64,000 nt of DNA. Origin: Aurantiochytrium sp. KH105. Taxonomy: Eukaryota; Sar; Bigyra; Thraustochytrida; Thraustochytriidae. Position numbers and translations under genes: made by a program. This document shows, in pieces, positions 7,517-41,061 of the stretch; position 1 is the stretch's first letter, and every line of letters starts with the position of its first letter. Location of the stretch: assembly GCA_003116975.1 (NCBI GenBank), contig BGKB01000076.1, forward strand, positions 310,001 to 374,000, in the 5' to 3' direction. The notes under the pieces are model-generated. The model saw nothing but the letters and a program-made list of their open reading frames with translations. It searched no databases and was not told the DNA's origin.

Positions 7517-10500
7517 TCAGAGCTCCATCTGGCGCAGCGCTGTCTGGAAACGCTTCGCTACCGCTGACCAAAGCAGCTCGCTTCGCGCCCAAGCCTTCAT
7601 TTCCTGACGTTGCGCGGTCAGTGAGGCCTTGGGCAAATTGGCAGCGGCAATAACGGCAAGGCCAAATTCTTGTAGAAAAGCAGGGTCCTTGTCAATGCTC
7701 GGCGCCCCTAGCGGCCGTGCGGGCGGACCAAGGTCCCACTTTCCTGTCAGGTCTGGAAGTGCAGAATTCTCGTATCGACTCGTGATTGGAATCGATCCCA
7801 TTGCCATCGCTTTCATCATAGATACGCATCCGGTCTCTGGAAAAGATGTCGGATACAGTGAGAAGCCTGCGCGCGCGTAGGCCTTGGCAAGGTCCTGATG
7901 TGACACCATGCCGACATACTCGACGCCTTCGGCAGCCAAGGTTCGGATCGTCGTGTTGAGATGGTGCACCCACGTCTCAAATTCATGGATGCTTGTTGCG
8001 CCCCAGCGCATGAACGAAGGTGAAAATCCGTAATAGATGCGCAAGCGGGCGTCTCTGATAGAAGCTCGTATGCGTGGCCATACGCGGAGTAGCTGCTCAA
8101 GCCCTCGATTTGGAGCAGATGCGTAAATGAATTCGTTGTTGGCATTTTCACCCTGGGCAAAGAATGTGGACTGAAGACCATTCCCGATCACGACGGTGCT
8201 ACGCTGCACGTCTTCGGGCATGCTCGATACGTGAAAGCGACTGATGGCAAGAACAGCGTGGAGAGCATTTTGCTTATGTTGAAGTGCAATTTGAGGCCCG
8301 AGGGAACTCACAACATCATGAAGCCAGAGCAGTCGCACCTTGGACGATTGCCCTATTGCGAGCGAAATGTGATATCGCCATGCCACAAAAACGTCCGCAG
8401 GATCCTGTGCATCGTACGCGGTGTGCGGGAACCAGTATACCTCGTGCGCCTCCTCGCGGCCCACATCCTCGTCCGGAGGATCTGCGTAGATTTCCACAAG
8501 GTAACCCAGATCAGCCAGTTCACGTGCGAGAAAAATGACTGCTTCCTCAGACCCACCGACCCCATTTGTCGAAGGCGAAGTTGGACCCCAGCGCGGCCAC
8601 CAGGTCTGGCCGTACTCGTTGCAGTAAAATGCAATACGCGGTCGACCGCGCGGAGCAAGAAGCTCTGGTCTCGCTTGAAAGCGCGCTGCATGTTCTGCAA
8701 CTACCGTTTGGGAGTGCAACGCCAGCGCTTCAGCGTGGCGCTCCGCTGCAGACAGGAGCGCCCCGGCATCGTAGAAACGACGAAAGTATTGATCGCTTGA
8801 TGGATCGAAAAGGGTCGCAGACTGCTGCTTGATGTGAGCAGCAAGGACAAGGTCTTGGTGATGGCGCGCAAAGTAGTCCACCATGGTGTCCATGGCAGCC
8901 AGGAGAGTTTCCGTATTCGCTTTCTTTGCCGGGGAAAATTTTCTCCCATAGGTAACGAAGCGTTCCGTGAGGAGCCGGGCGTCGCGTGCCGTTTGCTCAG
9001 GCGCCGCAACAAAGGAAAGATGAACAGCAGCATTGAGAATATCTGCGAAGTTCCCAAGTCGGTTTCCTTCCGCCAGCGCAGCGTCGAGCGCATTCCGAAA
9101 TGCAGCACGAGCGCCCTCAAGTCGCGCTTGTTGTCGCTCAATATGCCCCAAGTTGGCGTAAACAAGACTCGTTGCTGTTCCGCTTCGCTTTGACAGCACC
9201 AACGCTGCACGAAGAATGGTTGTGTCCTGCTCGAGAATGCCGAGTAAGTGAGTTGCTTCTGCAGCCCTTGCCAGGTCGGGCTCGCGACGCATGCACCCCG
9301 CAAGCGCGCGACGATAAAGATTTGCGGCATGATCTTGGTTTGTGTAGTGCAGCTCTCTTCCCTCTTGAAGGAGTGCATCGTGGCGGCTGTATGCTGAAGC
9401 GGTTGCATCGCTGTTGTCGAGAACGAAAATGGCGCCCTCACGAGAATCTGAGGAGGAGGAGGAGGGAGAGGAGGAAAGAACAGTGTCCTCTGCAACAACG
9501 CGCATGGCATCTTCAAAGAAACGCGCAAATTGTCTCGGATCAAACGTGTGTTGCTGAACGAGGGCAGACGCCAGGCGTGCCTGCAAGGCGTCAAGCCTGT
9601 ATGGGTGCGTGGCGAGATCGACAGCAGTGTCTTCAAAATCCTTGACAGAGTCGACGGCGAGAACATCGTCGAGACGAAGTGTCTTCAAGAGGCTCGAGGC
9701 GACGCGTCCTGGGAAGAGGCTGCCACGCAACGTGAGGAGGGGAACGCCCGACCAGAGAACATCTGCTGCAGTCGTGTGCGCTCCGTATACAAAGGAGTCC
9801 AGAAAGAGGTCGACAGCTGCAATGCGATCGAGATGGCCATTCTTGTCAGCACGCGACAGGAAAACGAGTCTGCTAGGATGCACGCCGCGCGCCGCTGCCT
9901 GCGAGCGCAAGTTTGCTGTGATGTTGACCCCGCTGCGAGGTCGAGGTTCGATAAAAAGCATCACGCTATAGGGAACCCGACGCAGAATGCGCATCCACGT
10001 ATCAAAGGAAGCTGGCTCGAGCTTGTGCAGCGTGTTAAAGTTGGCGAAGCGAACGAGCCGAGGTGCTCGAAGTCCGTCCTTCGCGGAAAGATTTGCAGAC
10101 AAAGGCGAGGTGGCGCCCCCAATTGCAGCGACAATTTCTCGATCTGCAGTGGTCGCTTGACGACAAGCTCTACGGCCGTGCTCGCCCTCAATAAAGCTCT
10201 GGCAGAGCCGGACGGTTCCATTATAATCATTGGCTTGGTATGTCCCGGGAAGGTAAACTGGGCGCTCCGAGACTTCCGCAGCAATATGCTCGGCAGGGAG
10301 CACGGTCTTGTCTACGATGACATAGGCGTTTGGGCTCGCGAACCCGCTCGTGCCTGGGTAGCCAAGAAAGTTGACATAGACTGGAGTGCGTGAGAGAGCA
10401 GCAATGTCGACGCGCGCTCCACGTGTGTGAGCCATGAGATCGATAAGGATGTCGATTTCGTCAGTCTTGAAGCGATTGACGATGGCGTCAGTTGGAGCTC

Positions 10501-11836
10501 GTGCCACATTGACAAAATGGTCTGCAGCGCGCGCAACACGATCTTGTTGCCAGCTTCCGTTACGGGGACCATACATGTACACAGAAACATCGAAATGAGC
10601 GCGGTCGTGATGCGCGTACAGGCCGCGCATGAGAAATCCCATGGGGTGGTTGTTCATGTCATACGAAAGGTAGCCGAGTCGGAGCAAATCGGGCCGATGG
10701 CCATCCGAACGTGCGAGCGGTCGACCATGCGGCTGTGGACTGGTGTGCAAGCCAGAAACAGCGCGGCGTGCAATTTGCGCAGGCGAAAGTTCCCTTTGTA
10801 AAAGTGATGGTGGAAAGAGAAGACTATCATACGGCGGAAAAGCCTCCGCGTCGCCAAAGCTGATATTTCCGGCTGCCGCGTCACGCAGAATTCCATGTGC
10901 CAGACGAATATGAGTTTGGTCCCAATCTTTCCAGAGACAGAGTGAGCGAAGAGCAACAATGCGCTGCACTGCAGCTGCCATCGAGCTCGGATCTATCGTG
11001 AGCGCCCGTTCGTGCTGTGCGAGGGCCCCATAGAGGTCTCCGCCCTCGCGCAATGTTTGTCCAAGGTTATTAATTGTGTCCAATTGCGTCTGCAAACCCT
11101 CACCATGCGCTTCCGTCGCGCCCGCGGCTCGTCCATGATAAAGCGCAGCCTCCTTGAAGCGATTGAGTTTGATGAATAGGTTACCCAAGTTCATGTTTGC
11201 GCGTACATGAAGAGGGTCAAGCTGCAAGACGTCCATGTAATTTCGGTAGGCAAGATCCGTTTCGCCCAAAAGCTGGTATGCGTTTGCGAGATTGTACCGT
11301 GCGTCAATCAATGATGGATCGTACTCGATGGCAGCACGGTAGAATGGTATGGAAATGGTGCGAATGGTAATCGGTTCGAGCGCAGTATGCTCGGCACCTT
11401 GGGTGGCCTTTAGGAATGAAACAAGACCTAGGTTATTTGAGGCTGCCGCAACGAGATCTATGCGCTTCGCGTCTTGCGCAGCGCTCAAGAGCTGCTCGTA
11501 GCGCACTTGTGCTGCGTCGAGCTCGCCCCGACGTTTATGAACTCCGCCCATGTTGTTGATGGCTTCTAGAAGATCTGCTTTGAGCCCCAAGGCAGTCTTG
11601 TACGCAGTTTCGGCGGACTCCAAGTCCCCGGACCTCTCTGCATTGACGCCGTTGTTGTAGGCCGAGTACGCCTCGAACTCCTCGGCATTGCGAATGAGCA
11701 CAATCCCGTTTCCAGCCCCTCCGGGTCCTGCGGCGGCTTCGTCGGCAGCGGCAGTGCCAACATGATGTAGCAACGCCAGTGCAAGCGCTGCTCGCAGCGC
11801 GAGACCTACAGCTTGTGCCAGCGCCGTGCGCCGCAT
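7517..11836 (-). CDS. Secretory double glycosyltransferase: TPR + OGT-type GT41, then TPR-like + GT4
   Basis: The protein has 1439 residues from the first ATG at 11836. Residues 1-32 form a signal peptide (Arg start, Leu/Ala core, A-A-A-D-E). TPR repeats cover about 45-320. An O-GlcNAc-transferase (GT41) catalytic region spans about 380-790. It shows Y-D-M-N-N-H-P (the conserved catalytic-site His-Pro), F-L-G-Y-P-G-T-S-G, N-F-N-T-L-H-K (the UDP-contacting Lys) and H-T-T-A-A-D-V-L-W. A Ser/helical linker with TPR-like helices follows. A GT4-type domain then spans about 1085-1435, with G-V-G-G-S-E-E-A near its start and F-P-E-T-G-C-V-S-M-M-K-A-M-A-M-G-S-I-P-I-T. Both catalytic domains look intact. 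Known OGT acts on nuclear and cytosolic proteins, so a signal peptide suggests action in the ER or Golgi. Substrates are unknown. It converges with CCT4. Confidence 0.88.
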   Translation of the reverse strand: MRRTALAQAVGLALRAALALALLHHVGTAAADEAAAGPGGAGNGIVLIRNAEEFEAYSAYNNGVNAERSGDLESAETAYKTALGLKADLLEAINNMGGVHKRRGELDAAQVRYEQLLSAAQDAKRIDLVAAASNNLGLVSFLKATQGAEHTALEPITIRTISIPFYRAAIEYDPSLIDARYNLANAYQLLGETDLAYRNYMDVLQLDPLHVRANMNLGNLFIKLNRFKEAALYHGRAAGATEAHGEGLQTQLDTINNLGQTLREGGDLYGALAQHERALTIDPSSMAAAVQRIVALRSLCLWKDWDQTHIRLAHGILRDAAAGNISFGDAEAFPPYDSLLFPPSLLQRELSPAQIARRAVSGLHTSPQPHGRPLARSDGHRPDLLRLGYLSYDMNNHPMGFLMRGLYAHHDRAHFDVSVYMYGPRNGSWQQDRVARAADHFVNVARAPTDAIVNRFKTDEIDILIDLMAHTRGARVDIAALSRTPVYVNFLGYPGTSGFASPNAYVIVDKTVLPAEHIAAEVSERPVYLPGTYQANDYNGTVRLCQSFIEGEHGRRACRQATTADREIVAAIGGATSPLSANLSAKDGLRAPRLVRFANFNTLHKLEPASFDTWMRILRRVPYSVMLFIEPRPRSGVNITANLRSQAAARGVHPSRLVFLSRADKNGHLDRIAAVDLFLDSFVYGAHTTAADVLWSGVPLLTLRGSLFPGRVASSLLKTLRLDDVLAVDSVKDFEDTAVDLATHPYRLDALQARLASALVQQHTFDPRQFARFFEDAMRVVAEDTVLSSSPSSSSSDSREGAIFVLDNSDATASAYSRHDALLQEGRELHYTNQDHAANLYRRALAGCMRREPDLARAAEATHLLGILEQDTTILRAALVLSKRSGTATSLVYANLGHIERQQARLEGARAAFRNALDAALAEGNRLGNFADILNAAVHLSFVAAPEQTARDARLLTERFVTYGRKFSPAKKANTETLLAAMDTMVDYFARHHQDLVLAAHIKQQSATLFDPSSDQYFRRFYDAGALLSAAERHAEALALHSQTVVAEHAARFQARPELLAPRGRPRIAFYCNEYGQTWWPRWGPTSPSTNGVGGSEEAVIFLARELADLGYLVEIYADPPDEDVGREEAHEVYWFPHTAYDAQDPADVFVAWRYHISLAIGQSSKVRLLWLHDVVSSLGPQIALQHKQNALHAVLAISRFHVSSMPEDVQRSTVVIGNGLQSTFFAQGENANNEFIYASAPNRGLEQLLRVWPRIRASIRDARLRIYYGFSPSFMRWGATSIHEFETWVHHLNTTIRTLAAEGVEYVGMVSHQDLAKAYARAGFSLYPTSFPETGCVSMMKAMAMGSIPITSRYENSALPDLTGKWDLGPPARPLGAPSIDKDPAFLQEFGLAVIAAANLPKASLTAQRQEMKAWARSELLWSAVAKRFQTALRQMEL

Positions 11837-12980
11837 CGCGCGCAACGGGAAAGGCGGTTGTGTGATTGACGCGCTTGTTGCTTTGACTCGTCAATGGCCC
11901 GTCCGAAGATCATTTGCCATGGTTGATGAAAAGAAACTGGGAAAGAAAAAAAAAAACTTGAGGAAAAAAGTTATCAACCGTCGATCGTTCGTTTTGTCGC
12001 TGTCGCGATCTGCTGCCGGCCAACTGCTCGCATCGCCAGCAGAATCTTTTTTTGGGGGGGTACGCATTATACTCTTTCTGAGACTGCGAGCGCGATGGAT
12101 GGCAAGAAGCAAATGCGCAGCGCGGCGGATGCTAGCTAACTAACAGTATTGTCATTGTTGTTGTTGAACCCTGCACTGTAGAAGCGTATCCGTTCACTCA
12201 CTGACGACGTTTTCGTCTCTCCCCATGAACCGTGTGTGTGTGGTGGGTGGGCCTATACACGTATCAAAGAAAGACGCCTCTTCGCTTCACACGCGGTGTC
12301 GGGAAGCAAAAAAACTTGCTTTTTCGTGGGTCGTCGCCGAATTCGAGCCTGGTCATTTGTTCCTTATTACCCTGACGCAACCAAAACGAAAGGCTTACTT
12401 CTGCATTCCAATCTCGAAAACCAAAACCTCATCTATCTCTCCGCCCTCGACGTTCTCCGCGTGCATCCACGCGCCTCCCCGTCGCCCTCCCTCCTCCTCT
12501 TCTCGCCTCCGTCTCCCGCGCCCCCCCCGGCCGGCGAAACTCGCCCGGGACTCGCCGCGGCTCCCCCCGGCCCCGGCCCCGCGAGCAGGCGAGGGGGGCA
12601 CGCGGGGCGCCCTCGTGGACGTTGAGTCGCGGGTTTCCCCGATCCCCCGGCGGCCGCCAAGCCAAGCCAAGCCAAGCCAAGCCAGGGCGCGGCGGCAGAC
12701 CGCTCCGGCCTGCGAGGCGAGCGCGGCGACGGAGGCAGCGAGCGCGAGCCCGCGGGAGGCACCGCCGCCGCGCGCGCGCCCGAGCCGGGCTGCTGGCTTC
12801 GCCTCGCTTCTCGGTCTTCCTTTCTTCCTTTGCCCGAGCCAAACTTGCGACTCCGAAAGCAAAGCTCGCGCACTCGCGCGTGCGCTAGGAGCTCGTGCGC
12901 CGCATAGCTTGCCCACGCGCACGCGCACGCGCACGCGAGCTCGCTCTCTCTCGCGCTCGCACGCGCTGCAGGGCGCGGAG
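11837..12980. promoter_or_regulatory. Divergent region between glycosyltransferase and endosulfine-repeat genes
   Basis: 1.14 kb of intergenic DNA. The left half is A/T-richer, with homopolymer A and G runs near 11945-11975 and 12047-12060. The right half is GC-rich. At 12657-12682 there are tandem C-C-A-A-G units and at 12914-12938 tandem C-G-C-A-C units. The frame of the next gene is open back to 12225, but that extension is low-complexity and probably not translated. Confidence 0.45.
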
Positions 12981-14918
12981 ATGAGCGCAGGGAACGAGGC
13001 GTCCGCGGCCAAGGCCGTGGGCAAGACGGAGACCTCGTCGGGGCAGCAGCTGGGGCAAATGCAGCAGCAGCAGCAGCAGCAGGGACAGCAAGGCTTGCAA
13101 AAGGTGGAGTCCGCGCTCAAGGGCCGCCGCGAGCTCCTGGACCACCGTCTGTTTGAGATGCGGCACTTTGATTCGGGCGAGTACTTTTGCCTTCCACGAG
13201 ACCAGCAAGAGGACTACTTGCAAGACATTGAAACCACGCAAGAGGTCGGCCACCATCACGTGCATAGCGCGCGCGGGACGAACCCCCAACAGGACAAGGT
13301 CAAGCATCGACTGGAAGAAACGAACCTTCGCAAGAAGAATCTCGACGCTGCGAAGCGGACGCCCGTTTCTGCGGCATCCGCGACAACAGCTTCCTCTGCA
13401 GAATCGGCGTCGTCGCCCGTGGCAGACGAAGCGACGTCTTCTTCGCCCAATTCCAAATTCCCATTCTCGCCCCCGCGCGGCACTGTCGCCAGCAAGCACA
13501 GTACCACCACGACTGATGTAGATACCAAGCACGACGGGAGACGAGTACTCTTGGAACGCAGCCTGCGACGCGTTCGCCGCTTTGACAGCGGCGACTTTTT
13601 CGCAGGTGCGCCACCGGACGAAGCGATTGCTGGTACCAGCCCGCCTCGGCTGCGCGTCATGCGCACACGGGCCCTGCACGTCGAAACAAAGCGCAAGGCT
13701 TTTGCAGCTGCGTCGCCTTCCTCGTCTTTCTCGTCGTCTTCCGCGTCGACTTCAAAGCGTGCTCCAAATGTCCAACAAGGCACCAACGGTGCGACCCCAA
13801 GTGCGGGGTCGGAGGGCCGTCTCAAACGAAACGTCTCTGCAAGCGCCCACGAGCTTGTCGAGTGCGAGACGCCTCCGGACGAGGCTGCAAATCAGCCTGT
13901 TGCTGAAAAGAAGTCTGCCTCCAAGCAAGGTAGCCTTCAGGCAGCGGATCGCATTGAGCCGCAGCCGCACAGATTTCGTAAAAAGCAGCAGCATCCGCGC
14001 TTTGACAGCGCCGACTTTTTTCGTGGCGCGTTGACTGATGCTGCTGCAATTGCTCGTGTCAAGGACGCGCCCCCAAGTGTACAGGAGCGCGCGGCCGATG
14101 CCGTCACTGACGAAGCTCGCCGTGTGGTTCTCGAGCGCTCGATGCGTCACGCTCGGCGCTTTGACAGCGCCGACTTCTTCGCTGGCGTTCCTGCCGAGGA
14201 AGACGTTGTCGCTCGCTCGCCCCCAAAACAAACAAAGAACCAGCTCGTGCAAAACGCACTGTCTGCGCCGCCACCGCCTGCCGTGACCCCAGGCGAGCAG
14301 CAGGCTGCGCCGCTCTCGAGCGCGAAAATGGCCCAGCGCGTCTTGCATCGCCGCATGCAGCGGCAGGATAGCTCCGAAGCTGCTAAACGCAAGGCCCGGC
14401 AGCGTATCGTCGCGAAAATGGAGGGCGTCGCTGGTCGTCACGGTTCCGTGGAGTCCAAGACGTCGGACGATGGCCATTGCGCATCTGCCGAGGGTATCAC
14501 TGCGGGCAGCTCGAGGTCATCTTCTCTGCGTCATGGTTCGAATTTGCGCCACGCCAGCTCACTTTCTTCAAAGACCTCTTCTAATTCTTCTCTTCAGAAC
14601 AAGTCTCAGTCTGCTGCTGCGGCTGCTAAGGAGCGTTTGCGTGCGCCGCATTCGCCGCGGGTGCATCGCTTCGATTCGGCAGACTACTTTCGAGGCATTG
14701 ATACTGACGCTTTTGCGCTTCAACCCGACACTCTTACGTCGATCACAGCAGCTTCCTCATCTGATGCACCATCATCGTCATCGGCACGTTCTCCCCCTGC
14801 GCAGGCGCCGTATTCGCCACCAATACAGAGTCCACCTCCGGGTCCTTCAAGGCTGCGCAAGACATCGTTCGAGCGTTCGGCTGCCTTTGCGAACCGCTCG
14901 AGCTCTCACAATTCATAA
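12981..14918 (+). CDS. Multi-copy endosulfine-motif (F-D-S-x-D) protein, candidate PP2A-B55 regulator
   Basis: A 645-residue, mostly disordered protein rich in Ser, Ala, Arg and Gln. Five copies of a short motif recur: F-D-S-G-E-Y-F (Ser65), F-D-S-G-D-F-F (Ser203), F-D-S-A-D-F-F (Ser343), F-D-S-A-D-F-F (Ser396) and F-D-S-A-D-Y-F (Ser566). Most are preceded by Arg-rich helix-like sequence (for example L-L-E-R-S-L-R-R-V-R-R). A sixth, degraded copy reads R-M-Q-R-Q-D-S-S-E (Ser464). F-D-S-[GA]-D-[YF] is the signature of endosulfine/ARPP19/Igo proteins, whose Ser is phosphorylated by Greatwall/Rim15 to make an inhibitor of PP2A-B55. Those proteins are short (about 110-170 residues) and carry one motif. 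The function here is inferred from the motif only. The ATG at 12981 was chosen because the sequence upstream is GC-rich leader. Confidence 0.6.
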   Translation: MSAGNEASAAKAVGKTETSSGQQLGQMQQQQQQQGQQGLQKVESALKGRRELLDHRLFEMRHFDSGEYFCLPRDQQEDYLQDIETTQEVGHHHVHSARGTNPQQDKVKHRLEETNLRKKNLDAAKRTPVSAASATTASSAESASSPVADEATSSSPNSKFPFSPPRGTVASKHSTTTTDVDTKHDGRRVLLERSLRRVRRFDSGDFFAGAPPDEAIAGTSPPRLRVMRTRALHVETKRKAFAAASPSSSFSSSSASTSKRAPNVQQGTNGATPSAGSEGRLKRNVSASAHELVECETPPDEAANQPVAEKKSASKQGSLQAADRIEPQPHRFRKKQQHPRFDSADFFRGALTDAAAIARVKDAPPSVQERAADAVTDEARRVVLERSMRHARRFDSADFFAGVPAEEDVVARSPPKQTKNQLVQNALSAPPPPAVTPGEQQAAPLSSAKMAQRVLHRRMQRQDSSEAAKRKARQRIVAKMEGVAGRHGSVESKTSDDGHCASAEGITAGSSRSSSLRHGSNLRHASSLSSKTSSNSSLQNKSQSAAAAAKERLRAPHSPRVHRFDSADYFRGIDTDAFALQPDTLTSITAASSSDAPSSSSARSPPAQAPYSPPIQSPPPGPSRLRKTSFERSAAFANRSSSHNS

Positions 14919-23248: not shown

Positions 23249-24427
23249 GCTGGCTGCCGCGTGCGTACCACCACCGCACCCCGCGGCCTCCTTTCTCAAG
23301 GGCGGCCGACCGAGTTCTGTCTGCACACGGCAGCAGCCTCGCCGCGCCTCGCCGCGTCACGCGACCGCGCCTCGCCTGCCCGCGTGCGCGGCTGTCCCGG
23401 CTGCCTGCCTGCACCCGGCGGCAGGCCAGCTGGCTCTGGACCAGGTTTGCTTCTCCGCCCGCGCGGTGTTTGTTTGCTTGCCTGCCTGCTTGCTTTCCTC
23501 CTCTCGCCTCAAGTCGTCGCCGTGCTTCTGCAGTGCGTCGCGCACCATCACCTGCGCTGTGTCTCCGTCCGCATGCCGCGCGGTCCCTCATCATCGCCTT
23601 GCTGGTCCCCCGTAACTAACCACCCCGCGGCCGGGGCAGGGCCAGGCTCGCCCGGCCTGGCGCGCCTGGCCTCGCTCGCCCGGCGTCGGCGCCTCGAGCT
23701 CGCCCGGCCGGCGCCAGGAGCGGGAGCGGCGGCGGCAGCAGCTCGTCGGCGCGGTCGGGGTCGGGCTTGCACACGCAAGTGTTTGTCTTGTCTTGTGCAC
23801 TGTCGTTGTGTCCTCTTGTTTCCCCTGTGCACCGGCTCATCTACAGGGGCGGCACGTGCCGCGCCCTCTCCGCGCGCGCCCCCTTGGCCGCCGGCGTTCT
23901 CCGCGCGTGGTATTTTTCCGAGGGGGTACGCTGTATGTCTTCATAGTCGCTGCATGCACCAATAGGCTGCCGTCGCTCAGCAGTGGCGACGCTTGTGAAA
24001 TCTCGCGCCAAGGGGGCAGTAGAAAACTGCTTGCGCGAGTAAGGCCGGCCGGGAGAACGCGGGGGAACGGGGGACATCCACCATCCACCATGGCCACATA
24101 GACGAATCTCGATACTTTAGAACTCAGACCGGCACGAGGCTCGCGCCGAGCCAAGCGAAGCCAAGCCGCGCGCGGGCGAGCAGCCTGCCAGCGCGCGGAA
24201 GCTTGGGATAAAGCTCGAGCACACCGGCGACCTTGTGTGCGCGCACGTGCTGCTGATTGGGCTCCCTCTGCTGCTGGCTGCTCCACGGCCCGCCTGCCTC
24301 GTTTTGAAGGTAAAGGCGACGGGGAACCAGAGCAAGCACCAAGCCTGGCTTGGAGAGAACAAACGTGGTGCACGCGTCAACAACACATCAGCTATTTTTT
24401 TTTACGCGTCAAGAGTGCATTTTCACG
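23249..24427. promoter_or_regulatory. Divergent intergenic region, GC-rich
   Basis: 1.18 kb between the SUFU-like (-) and lectin-receptor (+) genes. The stretch 23300-23900 is very GC-rich with repeated CTGCCTGC, GCTTGCCTGC and CCGGC units. The right end (24380-24427) is A/T-rich and probably the leader of the receptor gene. Open frames across the GC-rich part lack recognisable protein. Confidence 0.45.
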
Positions 24428-27310
24428 ATGCAGAAAATCTTGTTTCGTTCTTCAAGCCTCTTGCGCAGAGATCAAAGATATGCGCTGCCGTTTCTGTGCG
24501 TATACGTCCTTCTCGCAGTAGCTTTGCATGGCGCGCAAGCATCCTTCGACGACCATGCTGCTCATCTCATTATCGAGAGCGTCCCGGACAAGCCTGAATT
24601 CGATTGCATGGAAGCACAATTTTCAGGACTCGTCCCTACCAAGGGTATTCACGGTGATGCTATTTTGTGGGGAGCATGCAATCTCGCAGAATTAAGCGAA
24701 ACGATGCTGGCTGGCTGGGCGCGAGGCGCAGCAGAATCCCTCGTCTTTATCGCCTCAGAGTCGTGCTCTGACCAAATGCATAGACTTGTAGACGTTATTG
24801 CCTCTGCGCCAAAAATCCGAGCCGTGGTTGTCGAGGACTGGCTTTCAGGGGACGATGCAAGCACGCCAGCCGCGCTTCCTTCCTCCATTAAGAAGTCTTC
24901 GATGCCTTCGCCACCGGTGTGCACCATCACGCATAATGCGATGAAAAGGATGGAGCTGATTTACGGTAAAATGCCACCGCATCGTCACTTTGCGACAGTC
25001 CGACTCAACAATCGGCAATTCGAAAATCTATATGTACTTTGCGACCAATGCGCGGTGCAGGGGGTTTATATTGACGGGGTTCCGCTCGACGTCAATGCAG
25101 AACAGCCTACCCTGGGGGTAACAGTTTCGGAGCACTACCGCACAGTTGCCGTCACCGTCCGCGCGGAGGCCAGCGGTGCCAGCTTTGTGCTCGGGTTATC
25201 GGATGGTTTTGCGACTGGAATTGGGAACTGGCGATGCACAAAGCCCACAGCAGACGCCAGTGCGAGTAAAGCAGCTCTCGAAAGCTGGATAAAAACAGGA
25301 ATGGTAGACGAACGTTCAGAAAAGCCTGCACTCATTCGTGCACATACGTTTGGACCAGGGGCAATGCACAACAACTTTGACGGCGACAACAACATTAATG
25401 GTGCTGATGATGATAACAATTCCGATAATGCCAGTAGCTCCGATTCACATGGGGGCCCATCGTATATTTGGCCAGCACAAGGCGGCGCCGCACTCGTTGG
25501 CGAGGTAACGACATGCTTTGCTTCACGCAGTTCCGCACGCGTTTCAAAGTACGGTTTCGAGTATGAATTTGTCGGCAAAAGGCTTACTTTTCATGACGCA
25601 AAAGAGTTTTGCCGAAACGAACGGAATGGAAGCCTCGTCTCGATTCACAGTCGAGCCGAAGAAGCACTGGTGGAGAGCATCATTCCTTGGAGGACGGAAA
25701 CAAACGTCTGGATCGGACTCGAGGGTTTGGCAGAAAAGGCTGGCTACTTTCGATGGCTTTCGGGGGCTCCTGTCGACTACACGAATTGGAATCGTCAGCA
25801 TGTATCAGGTCCCTCCTCGGGCGCAGTGTGCGTCCATCTTGCGACAGTGAACTCCCTATCCACTTCTTCTTCTTCTTCTTTAATGGGTATGAACTGGGTC
25901 AGAGACGATTGTAGTCGTCGCGCGAGCTTTGTGTGCAAGCGAGTCGCCCCCACAATATCAGACGACCGCGTCAGAGAATCAGAGGATCGATGTTTCGCAT
26001 ATCTTCGTGAGGATGGTATGATCCTTCCCGCAGCCCCTCCGCAACGACTTGTCAATTTACAGTCGGGCTTGTGCTCTTATGGGTCACAATATTCCTGCTG
26101 TTCTGCTGGTGCAATTGATACAGAATTCGCCAGAGCGCACGAATTTATCACGTCCCAAGTGGAATCGCCTATGTGTGCTCATGCACTGGAAGATTTGGCC
26201 TGCGCCGTCTGTCTTCCATCCTCGCATCATTTCGTGAGTTGGGCATCAAACCAGATCTCAATGCGATGGTGCAGAGATACTTGTGAGACAATCTTCGAAG
26301 CGTGCAAATCCGAGAAGACTTTCTTGAAAAACGAATCAATCGAGGACTTTGCACGTGAACCATGTATGTTGCTCAGGAGGCACATCTATGAGAGTGCGTC
26401 AAACAGTCCTCGATTCGATATCGCTATAATTGACGGACACTCTGAAGAGTGCCTTCGGATCGATTCACGCCCGCCCACGATAACGCGCGCCATCCTGCCA
26501 GGTTCCACAATGGACGGGGCAGAAGCATCGGTGGACCTTGTGCGTCTTTTTTTCGACGAGCAAATCGAGATTCGGTCTGGCGAGGTGCTTGTGTCAAGTG
26601 CAGAGACGCACAAAGTCGTCCGCGTCATTCCATTGGACTCTGCGACGCTCTCGAGGACCCGCTTTCCGAATGATACGATCACCCTGAGGATCAACAAAGC
26701 GACAGAGCTCGTGGCGGGAGCGTATGACTTGAACGTGCCTAATTTTGCTATTTTTGACATGGCCGGAAACATGTTTACGGGCACGAACACGTTCACCTCT
26801 CCACTGCGCTTTTCGGCGGCCGCCTCGCCTGGCGTGGACATTGTAGAACCTCTACCAATCAAGCCTGATCCGGTGCCGATTCCTATTCCAGACCCGATGG
26901 AACCTCTTCCGGATCCGCCAATGGAACCCTGGGTACCCGATGAGCCCTCTCCCTCGCCTTCGGCTAAAAGCGGCGGCTTGGGAGCTTTCTTTGTGATCGT
27001 TATCGTTTGCGGCGTCTTGGGAGGTCTCTTTGTGGTCGCCCGGAAATCGTGGCGGCGAGGGCCGGGATCCTCATCGAGCGCGCCTTTCTACGACCGCCTC
27101 GGCGACACGTTTTCGGACCTCACCACGTCTCTGAGCGGGCGCCTCGCTCGCGCGGAGTCGTCTTTTGCCCCGTCGGCTTACTCTGCGCACGACCACAGCG
27201 CCGCGCACGCCTCGCTCGAGACCGAGCTCTCCTCCTCGGCCGTGGCGTCGCGGGCCCCATCGGAGTCGTCTTCCGTGGGTCTTCTCGACGCCGAGGTGGG
27301 CCCCCCGTAG
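24428..27310 (+). CDS. Single-pass surface receptor: C-type lectin, folate-receptor-like Cys-rich, and Big_5-like domains
   Basis: 960 residues from the ATG at 24428. A signal anchor or signal peptide lies at about 15-38. An N-terminal region of unknown fold (40-330) is followed by an acidic Asn/Asp/Ser linker. A C-type lectin domain spans about 370-507 (F-H-D-A-K-E-F-C, V-W-I-G-L-E-G, N-W-V-R-D-D-C, F-V-C-K). A Cys-rich region at about 544-646 has C-C-S-A-G, M-C-A-H-A-L, W-C-R-D-T-C and F-E-A-C, resembling folate-receptor/HHIP-type domains. A beta-sandwich like the SbsA/Big_5 fold follows at about 684-797 (V-R-L-F-F-D-E-Q-I, D-M-A-G-N). A Pro-rich stalk leads to a transmembrane helix at about 847-873 and a Ser-rich cytosolic tail of about 85 residues. 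Ligand is unknown; a role in recognising glycans, food or mates is inference. Confidence 0.82.
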   Translation: MQKILFRSSSLLRRDQRYALPFLCVYVLLAVALHGAQASFDDHAAHLIIESVPDKPEFDCMEAQFSGLVPTKGIHGDAILWGACNLAELSETMLAGWARGAAESLVFIASESCSDQMHRLVDVIASAPKIRAVVVEDWLSGDDASTPAALPSSIKKSSMPSPPVCTITHNAMKRMELIYGKMPPHRHFATVRLNNRQFENLYVLCDQCAVQGVYIDGVPLDVNAEQPTLGVTVSEHYRTVAVTVRAEASGASFVLGLSDGFATGIGNWRCTKPTADASASKAALESWIKTGMVDERSEKPALIRAHTFGPGAMHNNFDGDNNINGADDDNNSDNASSSDSHGGPSYIWPAQGGAALVGEVTTCFASRSSARVSKYGFEYEFVGKRLTFHDAKEFCRNERNGSLVSIHSRAEEALVESIIPWRTETNVWIGLEGLAEKAGYFRWLSGAPVDYTNWNRQHVSGPSSGAVCVHLATVNSLSTSSSSSLMGMNWVRDDCSRRASFVCKRVAPTISDDRVRESEDRCFAYLREDGMILPAAPPQRLVNLQSGLCSYGSQYSCCSAGAIDTEFARAHEFITSQVESPMCAHALEDLACAVCLPSSHHFVSWASNQISMRWCRDTCETIFEACKSEKTFLKNESIEDFAREPCMLLRRHIYESASNSPRFDIAIIDGHSEECLRIDSRPPTITRAILPGSTMDGAEASVDLVRLFFDEQIEIRSGEVLVSSAETHKVVRVIPLDSATLSRTRFPNDTITLRINKATELVAGAYDLNVPNFAIFDMAGNMFTGTNTFTSPLRFSAAASPGVDIVEPLPIKPDPVPIPIPDPMEPLPDPPMEPWVPDEPSPSPSAKSGGLGAFFVIVIVCGVLGGLFVVARKSWRRGPGSSSSAPFYDRLGDTFSDLTTSLSGRLARAESSFAPSAYSAHDHSAAHASLETELSSSAVASRAPSESSSVGLLDAEVGPP

Positions 27311-35817: not shown

Positions 35818-38800
35818 ATGGGCCGCAAGAAGGCGTCGCGGCCAGGGCGCTTGCCCGCGAGCCGCGACGCGGGCGACAACTCCGTGGCGCTCGCTGCCTT
35901 CGAGGTGCGTCTGTCGCAGGCAGAACGTGGAGCTCAGCTCGGCGCCTTTGGCCGCGGAGATCCAGAAGACGACGACGGCGACGACAGCGACCATGGCAAG
36001 TCGTGGATCGTGCCCGACGATCACGACGTCATCATCATTGACGATGAAGATGACGATCGGGAGAACGACCAAGCTCGCTTCAACAGCGCAGACATGGCCG
36101 CCTTGGATGGCGAGGAAGTCGAGCCCAAACGACCTGCCCCGCAACCTGGCAATCTCCTCCGGGAAGCGTGCTGCATCAATCTACAGAATCCAGACGACGC
36201 CAGTCCCGATGAAGACGCTGGCGTTCCTCTTGCCGTGGTGCAACTCGACTTTTACAAGAGTCTCGGTAACGATGTAGTCCTCTTTTACAAATCAATCAAA
36301 CAAGGGGCAAGAGAAGAAGAAGAAGAAGGAGATAAAGGAGTTCACGCCCCCGTGGACTTTGGTACCCCGGATGACGGCGCGCTCGAAATGTTCCTCGTGC
36401 GCGGTCTTGCCGACGAGCACCTAGCGTTGTCTATTCGTCGCGGCGGAATGGAACGTTTTCGGGGCATTGCCTCCTATTGGATGGGGGGCACCGAAAACCA
36501 GCTCGAGGCTCTCGCAGAGCTCGTCACGCGAGGCGACCTACACGTTCGCTGCAAGACAGTGGCGCGAGGAGACCGTCAGGTACTACACTACGAAATCAGT
36601 CTTCCCCGTGAGAATCTTTTAGAAACGCGCATGGAGGCCATCTTGGCAAAGCTGCCCACGTTCCAGAATCTTACGTGGTCCATTCGACCCATTCTTGTGG
36701 TTTTTGAGTGGATCTTCCCTGGATCAGTGTCTACTGTCAGCGCTGACTGGGAGCGGATCGCGGCGCTCGGGCCAAACAGTAAGACCCCGGCCCCATCCTC
36801 TGCTGCTGCTAAACTCGGAGCTCTCGTCGACCCCGCACGATTGTTTTACGCAATCCGGCCATCACAGACCCGTGCCCAACTCGAGGCCCAATATCTTCCG
36901 CAAGGGCTCAACGCGTCCCTTCGGCCATACCAGAGCCGCGCTGTCCGCTGGATGCTCGAGCACGAAGGCCTTGTCACCGTTCGCGCCGCTGATCGGGTGC
37001 AGGCCAATATTCTCTCGGCGATTTTTGGCGATTACATGGCTGCAGACGGAACAGAGATACAGTTTTGTCCCTTCAACGGGGCCATGTGCCAGCCCTCTGC
37101 AAACGCAATTCTGGACGAAGACCAGCGCGGTAGTCTTGGCGCCTTTGCGACAGGGGGTATCCTTGCTGACGAAATGGGACTCGGCAAAACGGTAGAGGTT
37201 ATCACCCTCGTCCTCGCGCATCGTGCTGCGAATGCTCGATTGTTTTCGCCCTTGATCGACCCCTTCCAAACACGTGCGCTTGGTTCGCCGCAAAATACCG
37301 ACAACGAGGACATTGTTTGCGTTTGCAATCTTCCGGAGGCGCAACTCCCTGGTGGCACCGTTCAGTGTCACTTTTGCGGCCAGTGGCAGCATCTTTTGTG
37401 CAGCCTCAACTACTCAAAGACACAAGCGAACCCACAAAACCTCGAAGAGACTGTCCATGTGTGTCTTTCCTGCCGAGCAACGCGCAATGGAGACCATCAA
37501 CCTCCGATCAAGGGGACGCTCATTGTGTGCCCTGTTTCCATTGCCGCTCAATGGCTTTCAGAAATCGACCATCACACGAGTTCAGGGACGCTCAAGGTGC
37601 TCATGTACGAGGGCGTCCGTGCAATTCGATCGAACATTGAGCGTGCCCTTCGCGTGGTTTGCGATTTGCATAACAAAATCCTCAAGTCGCCCGCTCGCGC
37701 TGCCGACCTCGAGCCCCAGCTGCAAGCCGCTATTCGCACCTATGAAACTGCGGTTGCGCCTCTTTGGCCGCAATATCTCGCCACTTTTGACGTCATTGTT
37801 ACCACCTACAGCGTTCTGCGTCTCGAAGTCCACCACGTACAAACCGCAACACGTCAGCGTGCAGATGAGCGCTTCCATTTGCGTCGCAAAAAACGCTACT
37901 TCTCGCCACCTTCGCCACTGACTTCGGTCACCTGGTTTCGAGTCTGTCTCGACGAGGCCCAGGAAGTTGAATCCTCTGCGGCGGCTGCAGCCGAAATGGC
38001 AAAAAATCTGCAAGCACGCTTTCGCTGGTGTGTCACTGGTACACCGGTTGGCAAGCATGGGCTTGAGGACCTCTTTGGCTTGCTTCTCTTTCTACGTGTG
38101 CCCGTTCTTAGCGATCCTGCGTGGTGGAATGCCGCCGTGGTACAGCCCCTTGCAGGTAAACGCCGGGGCGCCTTCCGTCGTCTTGCCACGGCTTTTCAGG
38201 GCATTCTCTGGCGCAACACCAAAGAGACGGTACAAGAAGAGCTTCGGCTTCCTAGTCTGACGGAGCACATTCATCGGCTCGAGTTCACAGCGATTGAGGC
38301 GCACTTTTACCGCAATCAACACGTTGCTGTCGCGAATCTGGCCTCCGAGGGCTTGCGGGGTGCTCGTGCCAACGGGGTGCCAGCACCATCTGCGGGAAAG
38401 CAACAGAAAAAGTCAACACTTGAAACAGCCATGCCACACCTTTTACGCCTGCGTCAAGCTTGTTGCCACCCGCAGATCGGAAGCTTTGGTCTCCGAGACG
38501 GTGGTCATGCGGGACGCGGACGCCGCAAGCGCGCTCGTCGCGTTGGCGCAGGACAGGACGCCTCGATCGGGGCTGCAGCTCAAGTCGAACGCGGCCGTTC
38601 CGCGGATGCCCCCATGACAATGGAGGAAATTTACAAACAGCTCGTTAATAAGGCCAAGCTCGAGTGCGAGGAATCGCAGCGTCTCCTGCTCATGAACACT
38701 AATGCCACCGCGGGCCTTCGCTTGCTCAAGGACGAGCCATCAAAGGCCCGTGAGATTTATCAGCGTGCTCTCGCCCTCATGAACAAGCATGAAAAAGAGG

Positions 38801-41061
38801 GCGTCTGTAAGACAGACTCTTTGCAGCGTCTGCACACGCTTGAAGCGCTGCGTCATATTCACGCCCTTGGTCTTCAAGATGAGTCTGTATCATCGAACTC
38901 GAACACCGGCGATCATCAAGGCGTCCCTGAGAATCTTGCCCAAGGCGCAAGCACGACAAATGCGCAAGGCGCTGGCTCGAACAAATTGACTGCGACACTT
39001 CATCTCGCACGCATGGACAAGGAAATCAAGGACATTCGGGACCGATTCATGGCTCGCTACGAGACCGATGTCAAAGTGAGCTTGCACTCTTTTACAAACA
39101 AAATGCAAACGGTAAAGCAAACACCCAAAGAGTGTGAAACCTGGTGGATACTTGCGCTCAGCGCCATCGAGAACGCTCCAGATGGCGAGTCCCGAAGCTC
39201 CATCCTCGTAGATAGGGTTCGCATGGACAAAAACAGTGGCGGAGCTCTGCAAAAGCGCCAAGATAGCCTCGTCTTTCAATTTGGAAGCCTTGAAGGGATG
39301 CGCATTGTCTTGACGCGAGAAATGCAAAAGCTCAACACGGCGCGGCAAACTGTGGAACGTGCTACTGCCAAAATGGGCGAAACACCATCGCTGAAAGAAA
39401 TTCACGAGTCTGCCGAATGCTCTGTCTGCAGGTACTATTTTGGAAAGACGGGTCCCATGTGCAGGCACTGTCGCATCAAAAAGGACTTTGTGGTCTTTGA
39501 GAATCTACTTTTTACGTTTGAGCGGAGCAAGCGCGACCAAGCTGCGCTGCAGGATGCCACATCGGGCGAAGGCGATGCCTCGAACTACCAATTTAGACAT
39601 GCCAGTGAGCTCGTACTCATGTTGCGCATCATCAAATCAGCAGCGCGCTCTGTTCGCGATACCCCTGGCCTGGGCGAGATTATTGACAACGCCGACGCGC
39701 ATCTCAGTCAGCTCGAGTCGCTTTCCTCCGAGCTTAGTGCTGCTTGGGATGTTTGGCAGAAACGAGACCAGTGGCTCAAGGCCTTTGACGAGCTCGAAAT
39801 GGCGACTATGCGCATGCGCCTTCAATTGCCCGGCGAGGCAATCGAGGCTGACGAAGACCAGTGGAAGATTCGCCCTGAAGAGCTCGAGGCCCGTCTTCAA
39901 GGCTACGAGCTCGAGTGCGCGCGTTACAGGTCACAACTCAACCAGTGCCTTTCCCAACTAAAGTATCTTGCGAGCATCAACGGTTCAGACTCCGAAGGGG
40001 CCAAGAAGACGGACTCCCAGGGCGGCCATCGCCTTGGTACCTCCGTCACAACAAGCACGCGCGCCGATGGCGGTGTTGACAACGAGTGTTGTCCTATCTG
40101 TCACGACCCATTTGGCTCTGAGTTTGCTATGCTCCTCTGTGGACACACGCTTTGTGTAACCTGCATTGACAAACTCTTGCGCTTTTCCAAAAAATGCCCC
40201 AACTGCCGCGCCAAGTTTCGCAAGGAAGACGTACGTTACGTCACTCGGCGGAAGCCTGTTTCTCCCGCGACGGGGTCGTCTTCGTCCTCGGCGTCGTCCT
40301 CAACAGGAGTGGCAGCACACAATGGCGCGTCAAGTTCCGCCGCTCAAGATAGTCCGGCTACGACAACGACAGCGACAGCGACAACGACAACGACAACGAC
40401 AACGACGCGTCTGAAGAAGTCTGGGTTTGGAACCAAGTTCGACGCCGTTGTTGAGGAGATCCTTCGTGTCGAGGCGAACTCTCCAGACGAAAAGTGCATC
40501 CTGTTTTCGCAGTGGGATGAGGTTCTTGGAATTCTCGAGCACGCATTACGCGTAAACGATGTTTCGCACGTCCGCATCAAGGGGCGCGCCAAGTATGATG
40601 AAAGGCTTGCGCTGTTTCGACGAGATCCCTCAGTTCGCGTCATGCTCATGAATCTCAGTTTTGGATCCCGTGGACTCAATGTCACGGAAGCCTCGCATGT
40701 TTTCCTTGTCGAGCCCATTATGAACCCTGCTATCGAGGCGCAGGCCATTGGTCGCATTCATCGCATGGGTCAGACGCGACCTACGCATGTGCACCGTTTT
40801 CTCGTCCGCAACACTGTCGAAGAGCGCATTCACAAGCTTTTTCGACGCAAGCGTCTCGAGGCCTTGAGTCATGAGGGTGACGGCGGTGAAGCACCAGACA
40901 TTGATCTCACGGGCGACGGCGATGATAACCCCAAAGCAGGCGTTATTCCTCCTGGAGAACAAACTCGTGAAGGGGCCGACCAAGAGTACAAGACGGCGGG
41001 AATTCTTTCCAACGAGCGCGAAGAACTATCAGAAAAAGAGTTGCAAGAACTTTTTTGTTAA
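35818..41061 (+). CDS. SHPRH/RAD5-like SNF2 translocase with PHD and RING (ubiquitin ligase)
   Basis: 1747 residues in one exon, near the size of human SHPRH (about 1680). The SNF2 ATPase begins before A-D-E-M-G-L-G-K-T (Walker A, about 450). A PHD-type Cys/His cluster (C-V-C-N-L, C-H-F-C-G-Q-W-Q-H, C-L-S-C-R, about 500-550) is inserted in the first lobe. The Walker B box reads C-L-D-E-A-Q-E (about 709). After a long helical insertion comes a RING finger (C-C-P-I-C-H, C-G-H-T-L-C, C-P-N-C-R, about 1424-1465). The second helicase lobe spans about 1558-1690 (L-F-S-Q-W-D, G-S-R-G-L-N, A-I-G-R-I-H-R-M-G-Q). PHD and RING inside the SNF2 motor is the SHPRH arrangement; SHPRH/Rad5 enzymes polyubiquitinate PCNA in damage tolerance. 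No linker-histone domain is seen before the motor. A Thr tract from an ACGACA repeat precedes lobe two. Confidence 0.92.
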   Translation: MGRKKASRPGRLPASRDAGDNSVALAAFEVRLSQAERGAQLGAFGRGDPEDDDGDDSDHGKSWIVPDDHDVIIIDDEDDDRENDQARFNSADMAALDGEEVEPKRPAPQPGNLLREACCINLQNPDDASPDEDAGVPLAVVQLDFYKSLGNDVVLFYKSIKQGAREEEEEGDKGVHAPVDFGTPDDGALEMFLVRGLADEHLALSIRRGGMERFRGIASYWMGGTENQLEALAELVTRGDLHVRCKTVARGDRQVLHYEISLPRENLLETRMEAILAKLPTFQNLTWSIRPILVVFEWIFPGSVSTVSADWERIAALGPNSKTPAPSSAAAKLGALVDPARLFYAIRPSQTRAQLEAQYLPQGLNASLRPYQSRAVRWMLEHEGLVTVRAADRVQANILSAIFGDYMAADGTEIQFCPFNGAMCQPSANAILDEDQRGSLGAFATGGILADEMGLGKTVEVITLVLAHRAANARLFSPLIDPFQTRALGSPQNTDNEDIVCVCNLPEAQLPGGTVQCHFCGQWQHLLCSLNYSKTQANPQNLEETVHVCLSCRATRNGDHQPPIKGTLIVCPVSIAAQWLSEIDHHTSSGTLKVLMYEGVRAIRSNIERALRVVCDLHNKILKSPARAADLEPQLQAAIRTYETAVAPLWPQYLATFDVIVTTYSVLRLEVHHVQTATRQRADERFHLRRKKRYFSPPSPLTSVTWFRVCLDEAQEVESSAAAAAEMAKNLQARFRWCVTGTPVGKHGLEDLFGLLLFLRVPVLSDPAWWNAAVVQPLAGKRRGAFRRLATAFQGILWRNTKETVQEELRLPSLTEHIHRLEFTAIEAHFYRNQHVAVANLASEGLRGARANGVPAPSAGKQQKKSTLETAMPHLLRLRQACCHPQIGSFGLRDGGHAGRGRRKRARRVGAGQDASIGAAAQVERGRSADAPMTMEEIYKQLVNKAKLECEESQRLLLMNTNATAGLRLLKDEPSKAREIYQRALALMNKHEKEGVCKTDSLQRLHTLEALRHIHALGLQDESVSSNSNTGDHQGVPENLAQGASTTNAQGAGSNKLTATLHLARMDKEIKDIRDRFMARYETDVKVSLHSFTNKMQTVKQTPKECETWWILALSAIENAPDGESRSSILVDRVRMDKNSGGALQKRQDSLVFQFGSLEGMRIVLTREMQKLNTARQTVERATAKMGETPSLKEIHESAECSVCRYYFGKTGPMCRHCRIKKDFVVFENLLFTFERSKRDQAALQDATSGEGDASNYQFRHASELVLMLRIIKSAARSVRDTPGLGEIIDNADAHLSQLESLSSELSAAWDVWQKRDQWLKAFDELEMATMRMRLQLPGEAIEADEDQWKIRPEELEARLQGYELECARYRSQLNQCLSQLKYLASINGSDSEGAKKTDSQGGHRLGTSVTTSTRADGGVDNECCPICHDPFGSEFAMLLCGHTLCVTCIDKLLRFSKKCPNCRAKFRKEDVRYVTRRKPVSPATGSSSSSASSSTGVAAHNGASSSAAQDSPATTTTATATTTTTTTTTRLKKSGFGTKFDAVVEEILRVEANSPDEKCILFSQWDEVLGILEHALRVNDVSHVRIKGRAKYDERLALFRRDPSVRVMLMNLSFGSRGLNVTEASHVFLVEPIMNPAIEAQAIGRIHRMGQTRPTHVHRFLVRNTVEERIHKLFRRKRLEALSHEGDGGEAPDIDLTGDGDDNPKAGVIPPGEQTREGADQEYKTAGILSNEREELSEKELQELFC

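Follow-up and report, generated by a model that had tools for sequence, protein, structure and literature searches.

A gene with five endosulfine-like F-D-S-[GA]-[DE]-[FY]-F motifs as a candidate multi-site regulator of PP2A-B55

The locus, the gene model and its two haplotypes

The window, that is, the whole stretch of 64,000 nucleotides that was analysed, is part of a eukaryotic assembly of 76 Mb in 367 contigs. It contains an uninterrupted open reading frame (ORF) whose translation yielded a protein of 645 residues, rich in Ser, Ala and Arg. The features of this ORF and the neighbouring genes are listed in Table 1.

Table 1. Positions of the ORF, its motif copies and predicted helices, and the neighbouring genes in the window
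Feature	Position	Strand	Remarks
Large protein	7517..11845	-	TPR repeats and a glycosyltransferase of family 41 (O-GlcNAc transferase type); weak match to a second glycosyltransferase region, of group 1
ORF, 645 aa	12981..14918	+	Predicted from the genome sequence; mostly disordered in the AF2 model; five FDS[GA][DE][FY]F motifs
Helix, residues 21-61	13041..13163	+	Predicted, block pLDDT 69-93; ends 4 residues before Ser65
Copy 1, FDSGEYF, Ser65	13167..13187	+	Gly type; only copy matched by Pfam Endosulfine
Full CDK site, Ser163	13467..13469
Helix, residues 185-199, before copy 2 (RRVLLERSLRRV)	13533..13577	+	Predicted, pLDDT about 52-55
Copy 2, FDSGDFF, Ser203	13581..13601	+	Gly type; motif scan
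Full CDK site, Ser220	13638..13640
Copy 3, FDSADFF, Ser343	14001..14021	+	Ala type; prolines before it; without predicted helix, basic only
Helix, residues 365-393, before copy 4 (RRVVLERSMRHA)	14073..14159	+	Predicted, pLDDT about 44-66
Copy 4, FDSADFF, Ser396	14160..14180	+	Ala type; motif scan
Full CDK site, Ser413	14217..14219
Helix, residues 446-486, spanning degraded copy 5 (VLHRRMQRQDSSE, Ser464)	14316..14438	+	Predicted
Copy 6, FDSADYF, Ser566	14670..14690	+	Ala type; prolines before it; without predicted helix
ORF with C-type lectin domain	24350..27310	+	Folate-receptor-like region barely above cut-off
SHPRH-like SNF2 helicase	35818..41061	+	RING finger; both SHPRH helical domains

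A second copy of the ORF, 97% identical, was found on contig C14 and is read here as the other haplotype. Comparison of the two alleles shows that the ORF is a real gene under purifying selection, with a dN of 0.014, a dS of 0.069 and a dN/dS of about 0.2. The alleles differed by 2.7% in the coding sequence and by 10.9% in the upstream region (11895-12980). Substitutions in the coding sequence were distributed over the three codon positions as 13/7/32, and two of its three gaps were multiples of three, the third being a single base at the stop codon (14917) whose placement is ambiguous; upstream, four of the 26 gaps were multiples of three. A longer frame is open from 12225. Nevertheless, the substitutions between 12225 and 12980 were spread evenly over the codon positions (28/24/24), so that this extension does not look coding, and 12981 is the most likely start of the protein.

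The cores of the five motif copies (ten residues each, 50 codons in all) carried no change, synonymous or nonsynonymous, between the haplotypes. In the wider repeat windows, nonsynonymous changes were found in 1 of 140 codons vs 18 of 505 outside (p 0.09), and synonymous changes in 2 of 140 vs 29 of 505 (p 0.04). Since the synonymous changes were fewer too, the nonsynonymous deficit is not clean evidence of selection, and these counts are only suggestive of selection on the wider windows.

Motif copies and the helices that precede them

The original prediction, made from the letters alone, had placed F-D-S-[GA]-[DE]-[FY]-F motifs at Ser65, 203, 343, 396 and 566, all in a shared Arg-rich context, as was an additional degraded copy at Ser464. 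The translation confirmed each of these copies, the degraded one reading RVLHRRMQRQDSSEA, with Gln at -2, Ser at +1 and Ala at +3. The eight residues from -10 to -3 of the five intact copies contained 4, 5, 5, 5 and 4 R/K/H residues, the protein-wide mean being 1.4 per eight-residue window, with at least four in 7.8% of the windows. The Phe described at +4 was also present in all five copies, unlike in ENSA. When the window was scanned in six frames with FDS[GA][DE][FYW], skipping matches preceded by a stop within 12 codons or followed by one within about 10, only the five motifs of the ORF matched. The number of FDS[GA][DE] motifs expected from the composition of the protein was 0.003; of 20,000 composition shuffles, 86 contained a single motif and the other 19,914 contained none, so that no shuffle reached two, and the seven-residue form never appeared. 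Five motifs are far beyond chance.

That the protein was built by internal duplication, as had been proposed, held for copies 2 and 4, whose flanks alone gave a similarity of 90 that none of 17,505 random pairs reached. The other nine pairs gave no comparable signal: with the core left out, the best of them was reached by 2.7% of the random pairs, and hence the remaining copies may have arisen by ancient duplication or as short motifs that converged.

Additionally, other short patterns were searched for in the protein. Full CDK sites ([ST]P.[RK]) occurred three times, with a shuffle mean of 1.3 (maximum 5); those at Ser220 and Ser413 lie 17 residues past the Ser of copies 2 and 4, inside the duplicated stretch. 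The patterns for PP1 RVxF, [RK]V..[VI]R, R..[ST].P and KEN/D-box gave no match in the protein.

The helices were taken from an AF2 model that was built from a single sequence and is poor (mean pLDDT 47.6). In this model, predicted helices end 3-4 residues ahead of Ser65, Ser203 and Ser396, and a predicted helix starts exactly at Ser343, Ser396 and Ser566, that is, at three of five motif serines vs one of 86 other serines; the latter is weak evidence, because D-S is a generic helix cap. These breaks echo the alpha3-kink-alpha4 arrangement of ARPP19, in so far as a model of this quality allows. Helices that bind B55 have hydrophobic residues at i and i+4 and a positive one at i+2 (PMC11446282), and the docking residues of ARPP19 are F48-L49-R50-x-R52-L53-x-K55, followed by a kink (PMC10765524). 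Copy 1 has L53, H55 and L57 at -12, -10 and -8 (L-x-H-x-L), and copies 2 and 4 have L-x-R-x-L/M at the same positions; in all three the register is shifted by one residue from that of ARPP19. The stretch before copy 4 is a near-duplicate of that before copy 2, and degraded copy 5, which has lost its site, keeps the helix signature that also precedes these two copies.

The helix patterns were written after inspection of the copies and their counts are thus post hoc: [FVILM][LIVM].[RK].[LIVM] matched three times, each time before copy 2, 4 or 5 (shuffle mean 0.2), and the i/i+2/i+4 pattern matched six times, four of them before copies 1, 2, 4 and 5 (3.0 in shuffles). Both the sequence pattern and a predicted helix, mostly of low confidence, precede copies 1, 2 and 4, and neither precedes copy 3 or 6. 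These results suggest a hydrophobic/basic helix of the ARPP19 kind ahead of copies 1, 2 and 4 but not ahead of copies 3 and 6.

Relation to the endosulfine family and candidate partners in the genome

When the copies were searched separately against the endosulfine HMM, as had been suggested, only one of the six segments (copy 1) was matched, with 12.9 bits and an E of 0.12. The whole protein scored 16.9 bits with Pfam Endosulfine (PF04667; E 0.0065, residues 37-93), under the cut-off of 29.8. Human ARPP19, used as a query against the genome, gave two matches (E 0.126 and 4.04), neither of them credible, and did not retrieve this gene; the five-copy profile did not retrieve ARPP19 from the PDB. 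Several other matches were rejected: the five chance-like PDB matches of the repeat profile (best, cadherin-23, E 0.05), the five of the whole protein (best, TRAPP subunit 31, E 0.016, within a low-complexity stretch) and a weak second Pfam match, Nmad5 (E 0.04).

Furthermore, the copies were compared residue by residue with Arpp19. The Greatwall site F-D-S-[GA]-[DE]-aromatic is present in the five copies, copy 1 having Glu at +2, and F-2, D-1, D/E+2 and F/Y+3, found in all five, are residues needed in Arpp19. There, Ala mutants at -3, -2, -1, +2 and +3 were dephosphorylated fast in extracts and lost B55 binding, those at -3 and +3 being less affected with purified enzyme (PMC8196004). The aromatic residue at -3 is absent from all five copies, which have H, R, R, R and R in order, and the TP-x-[DE]-L cassette (H-I-P-T-P-Q-D-L-P at the C terminus of ARPP19) does not occur in the protein. 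The Y-to-A change at -3 abolishes B55 binding in Arpp19, which also needs its C-terminal cassette (PMC8196004). In the ARPP19 structure, pSer62 lies in the active site, D61 and D64 form salt bridges, helix alpha4 starts at Ser62 and Tyr59 (-3) is held by the cassette (PMC10765524); the absence of the -3 Tyr and that of the cassette therefore go together. Either the inhibitory lock was replaced, perhaps through the multiple sites and the invariant Phe at +4, or the sites are ordinary substrates. Lying below the Pfam cut-off and lacking both the -3 aromatic and the cassette, the protein is endosulfine-like and is not filed here as an endosulfine.

The same two losses bear on a somewhat doubtful alternative, in which a basophilic AGC kinase (R-x-x-S) would use the protein as a scaffold or a multi-site substrate. 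The helices would recruit PP2A-B55 or another partner, and the protein would be a normal substrate, quickly dephosphorylated, and not an inhibitor. The R at -3 makes four of the five motif serines R-x-x-S sites, the missing aromatic and cassette are features that make Arpp19 a slow substrate, and kinases are many in the genome (136 matches listed, a count in which alleles and pieces are separate entries and some kinases are not of AGC type). Nevertheless, R-x-x-[ST] is no commoner in the protein than in its shuffles (12 vs a mean of 11.7), and this reading would leave unexplained why F-D always precedes the Ser and [DE]-[FY]-F always follows it.

The motif was then sought across the 76-Mb genome. 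A degenerate seven-codon pattern gave 10 matches, all of them in the two alleles of this gene (backward control, 0). With a shorter pattern there were 33 matches (backward control, 4), 30 of them with loci: eight belonged to this gene and the other 22 had no endosulfine-like context; among the three without loci, two were not FDS and one was FDSADL, read without context. The loosest pattern gave 62 matches (backward control, 17), and those which by their codons have Ser and an aromatic residue, outside this gene, came from four contig pairs, presumably alleles. By eye, these were FDSGEF in a helicase-like context (one contig), YDSAEY-F in a WD-like context with the +4 Phe but with Tyr at -2 and no basic stretch (one contig), FDSGDF in an acidic context (both contigs) and FDSGDW in a short frame, which is not the same on the two contigs (both). 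Neither these patterns nor the ARPP19 query found a single-site endosulfine in the 76-Mb genome, in searches that would miss one with an intron inside its motif or one lying in an assembly gap. The Pfam Endosulfine family search of the genome gave no match, and likewise none in 14 control genomes, which makes it uninformative.

A Ser/Ala/Arg-rich, mostly disordered protein is where chance, low complexity or an annotation artefact might be suspected, an explanation that is hardly credible here in view of the shuffles, the codon periodicity between the haplotypes, their dN/dS and this genome-wide pattern search. Relatives were also looked for in collections of viruses and prokaryotes, which say little about eukaryotes: the whole protein gave 600 pattern stretches in the viral contig collection and 566 in the genome contig collection, and the repeat alignment gave 13 in the viral one, with no confirmed relative in any case.

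With regard to possible partners, the genome has two B55 genes, each on two contigs (C68/C21 and C67/C157). The C68/C21 protein is 47% identical to human B55 and keeps 11 of the 12 helix-contact residues, the twelfth being D340E; these are the residues that touch the ARPP19, FAM122A or substrate helices (PMC10765524, PMC11446282). At 47% identity, the chance of keeping 11 of 12 is about 0.002. C68/C21 is a candidate partner B55 with the helix-binding platform, although such conservation does not prove an inhibitor, as the surface also serves substrates. The C67/C157 protein (L047/L048) is 33% identical to human B55 and keeps five of the 12, with changes that include D197N, E223T, V228Y and S287N; it could be insensitive to helix-type inhibitors. 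The contacts of B55 with the ARPP19 C terminus include loop 22-29 (PMC10765524). In this loop four of eight positions are kept in C68/C21 and two of eight in C67/C157, and F84 and S89 are kept in both genes. The divergence of the C68/C21 loop fits the missing cassette, yet it differs from the ENSA system.

A kinase on contig C95 (twin, C278) aligned with human Greatwall in two pieces of 46% and 48% identity (149 and 107 bits), in a search in which 126 of 652 candidates were scored. Summed, these pieces exceed the best single match listed (C102, 234 bits, 42%). Taken singly, they stand at about rank 27 and below by E-value in the list of matches, because the insert splits them. Comparable identities were found for C28 (46% in one piece, NDR-like by eye) and for C60 and C1 (47%, two 45-residue pieces). 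The C95 kinase has a long DFG-APE segment, with 102 residues separating DFG from GTPDYMAPE, and contains a zinc-finger-like stretch (CRICE); MAST-lineage kinases with intermediate inserts have been described in plants and protists (PMC12024977). Against the PDB, among the best 60 of 664 matches, it matched Greatwall best (5loh/8v5h, 1.1e-75), followed by CBK1 of the NDR type (8.2e-67). It is thus probably a Greatwall-like kinase of the Greatwall/MAST lineage and a candidate partner.

A different short linear motif, [RH]FDS[GA][DE][FY]F, which would bind another partner with or without phosphorylation and be merely convergent on endosulfine, is an unlikely reading. It would agree with the weak Pfam score and the absence of an ARPP19 match, with a constant +4 Phe that ENSA lacks and with copies 3 and 6 having no helix. 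Nevertheless, the likeness falls on the residues that matter in Arpp19, and a Greatwall-like kinase and a conserved phosphatase surface are encoded in the same genome. The proposal of an endosulfine-type PP2A-B55 regulator stood in part: most of the key residues, the predicted helix in three copies and the matching kinase and B55 surface speak for it; the sub-threshold Pfam match, limited to copy 1, and the lack of the -3 aromatic and the cassette speak against it.

Proposed mechanism and comparison with known systems

We consider the chances about even that the gene encodes an endosulfine-like, multi-site competitor or regulator of PP2A-B55. Action on PP2A-B55 is more likely than any single rival, and this gene is the only candidate for that job found in the searches of the genome. 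In the mechanism that we infer, which involves phosphorylation, B55 binding, inhibition, multivalency and timing, the Greatwall/MAST-lineage kinase (C95/C278) would phosphorylate several F-D-S-[GA]-[DE]-[FY]-F sites on their Ser. The basic amphipathic helix ahead of the site in copies 1, 2 and 4 would dock on the B55 platform, and the phosphoserine, between D-1 and D/E+2, would occupy the PP2Ac active site and compete there as a slow substrate, the way ARPP19 does. Lacking a docking helix, copies 3 and 6 would serve as additional tethered phosphosites, able to rebind as long as a helix nearby keeps B55 in place. With several sites per chain, one molecule might occupy more than one phosphatase or prolong the time to full dephosphorylation. 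The Gly-type copies (65, 203) and the Ala-type copies (343, 396, 566) may have different lifetimes, because Arpp19 is dephosphorylated more slowly and binds B55 better when its Gly at +1 is changed to Ala (PMC8196004).

A more specific version, doubtful and offered tentatively, is that this lineage replaced the single-site endosulfine by one five-site, multivalent, stepwise PP2A-B55 timer. The helix-bearing sites would hold the phosphatase, the helix-less ones would be spent in turn and the choice of Gly or Ala at +1 would set the lifetime of each site. The loss of the -3 Tyr together with the cassette, its crossover partner, and the divergence of the B55 loop would then imply an inhibitory lock rebuilt from multivalency and the +4 Phe.

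Endosulfines are small proteins with one conserved Greatwall site that act by 'unfair competition' (PMC3949306). A natural five-site version, if true, would turn this switch into a multisite system whose timing and dose could be set by copy number. It would also supply natural variants (Gly or Ala at +1, with or without helix, no cassette) for tests of which parts of the inhibitor are essential. Several sites in one protein are not described in the available parts of PMC10765524, PMC7700614, PMC6941129, PMC8196004, PMC11446282, PMC3949306 and PMC12024977.

Among known systems, FAM122A is a disordered inhibitor that places a helix on the B55 platform (PMC10765524), as is proposed here for copies 1, 2 and 4. 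It needs no phosphorylation, unlike the mechanism proposed, and its [RK]-V-x-x-[VI]-R motif is one of those absent from this protein. ENSA, ARPP19 and Igo have one site and this protein has five, in 645 residues vs the 112 of ARPP19; they have Tyr at -3, Asn at +4 and the TP-x-D-L cassette, whereas here R/H is found at -3 and Phe at +4, with no cassette. A survey of ENSA across eukaryotes was reportedly made by Labandera and others in 2015. The plant-type endosulfines presumably have a single site, FDSADW, with Trp at +3, and would share the Ala at +1 with copies 3, 4 and 6. In common with ENSA, ARPP19 and Igo, the protein is mostly disordered in its model and has the F-D-S-[GA]-[DE]-aromatic phosphosite, putative here, with D-1 and an acidic +2, and, ahead of it in copies 1, 2 and 4, a basic stretch that is predicted, mostly with low confidence, to form a helix.
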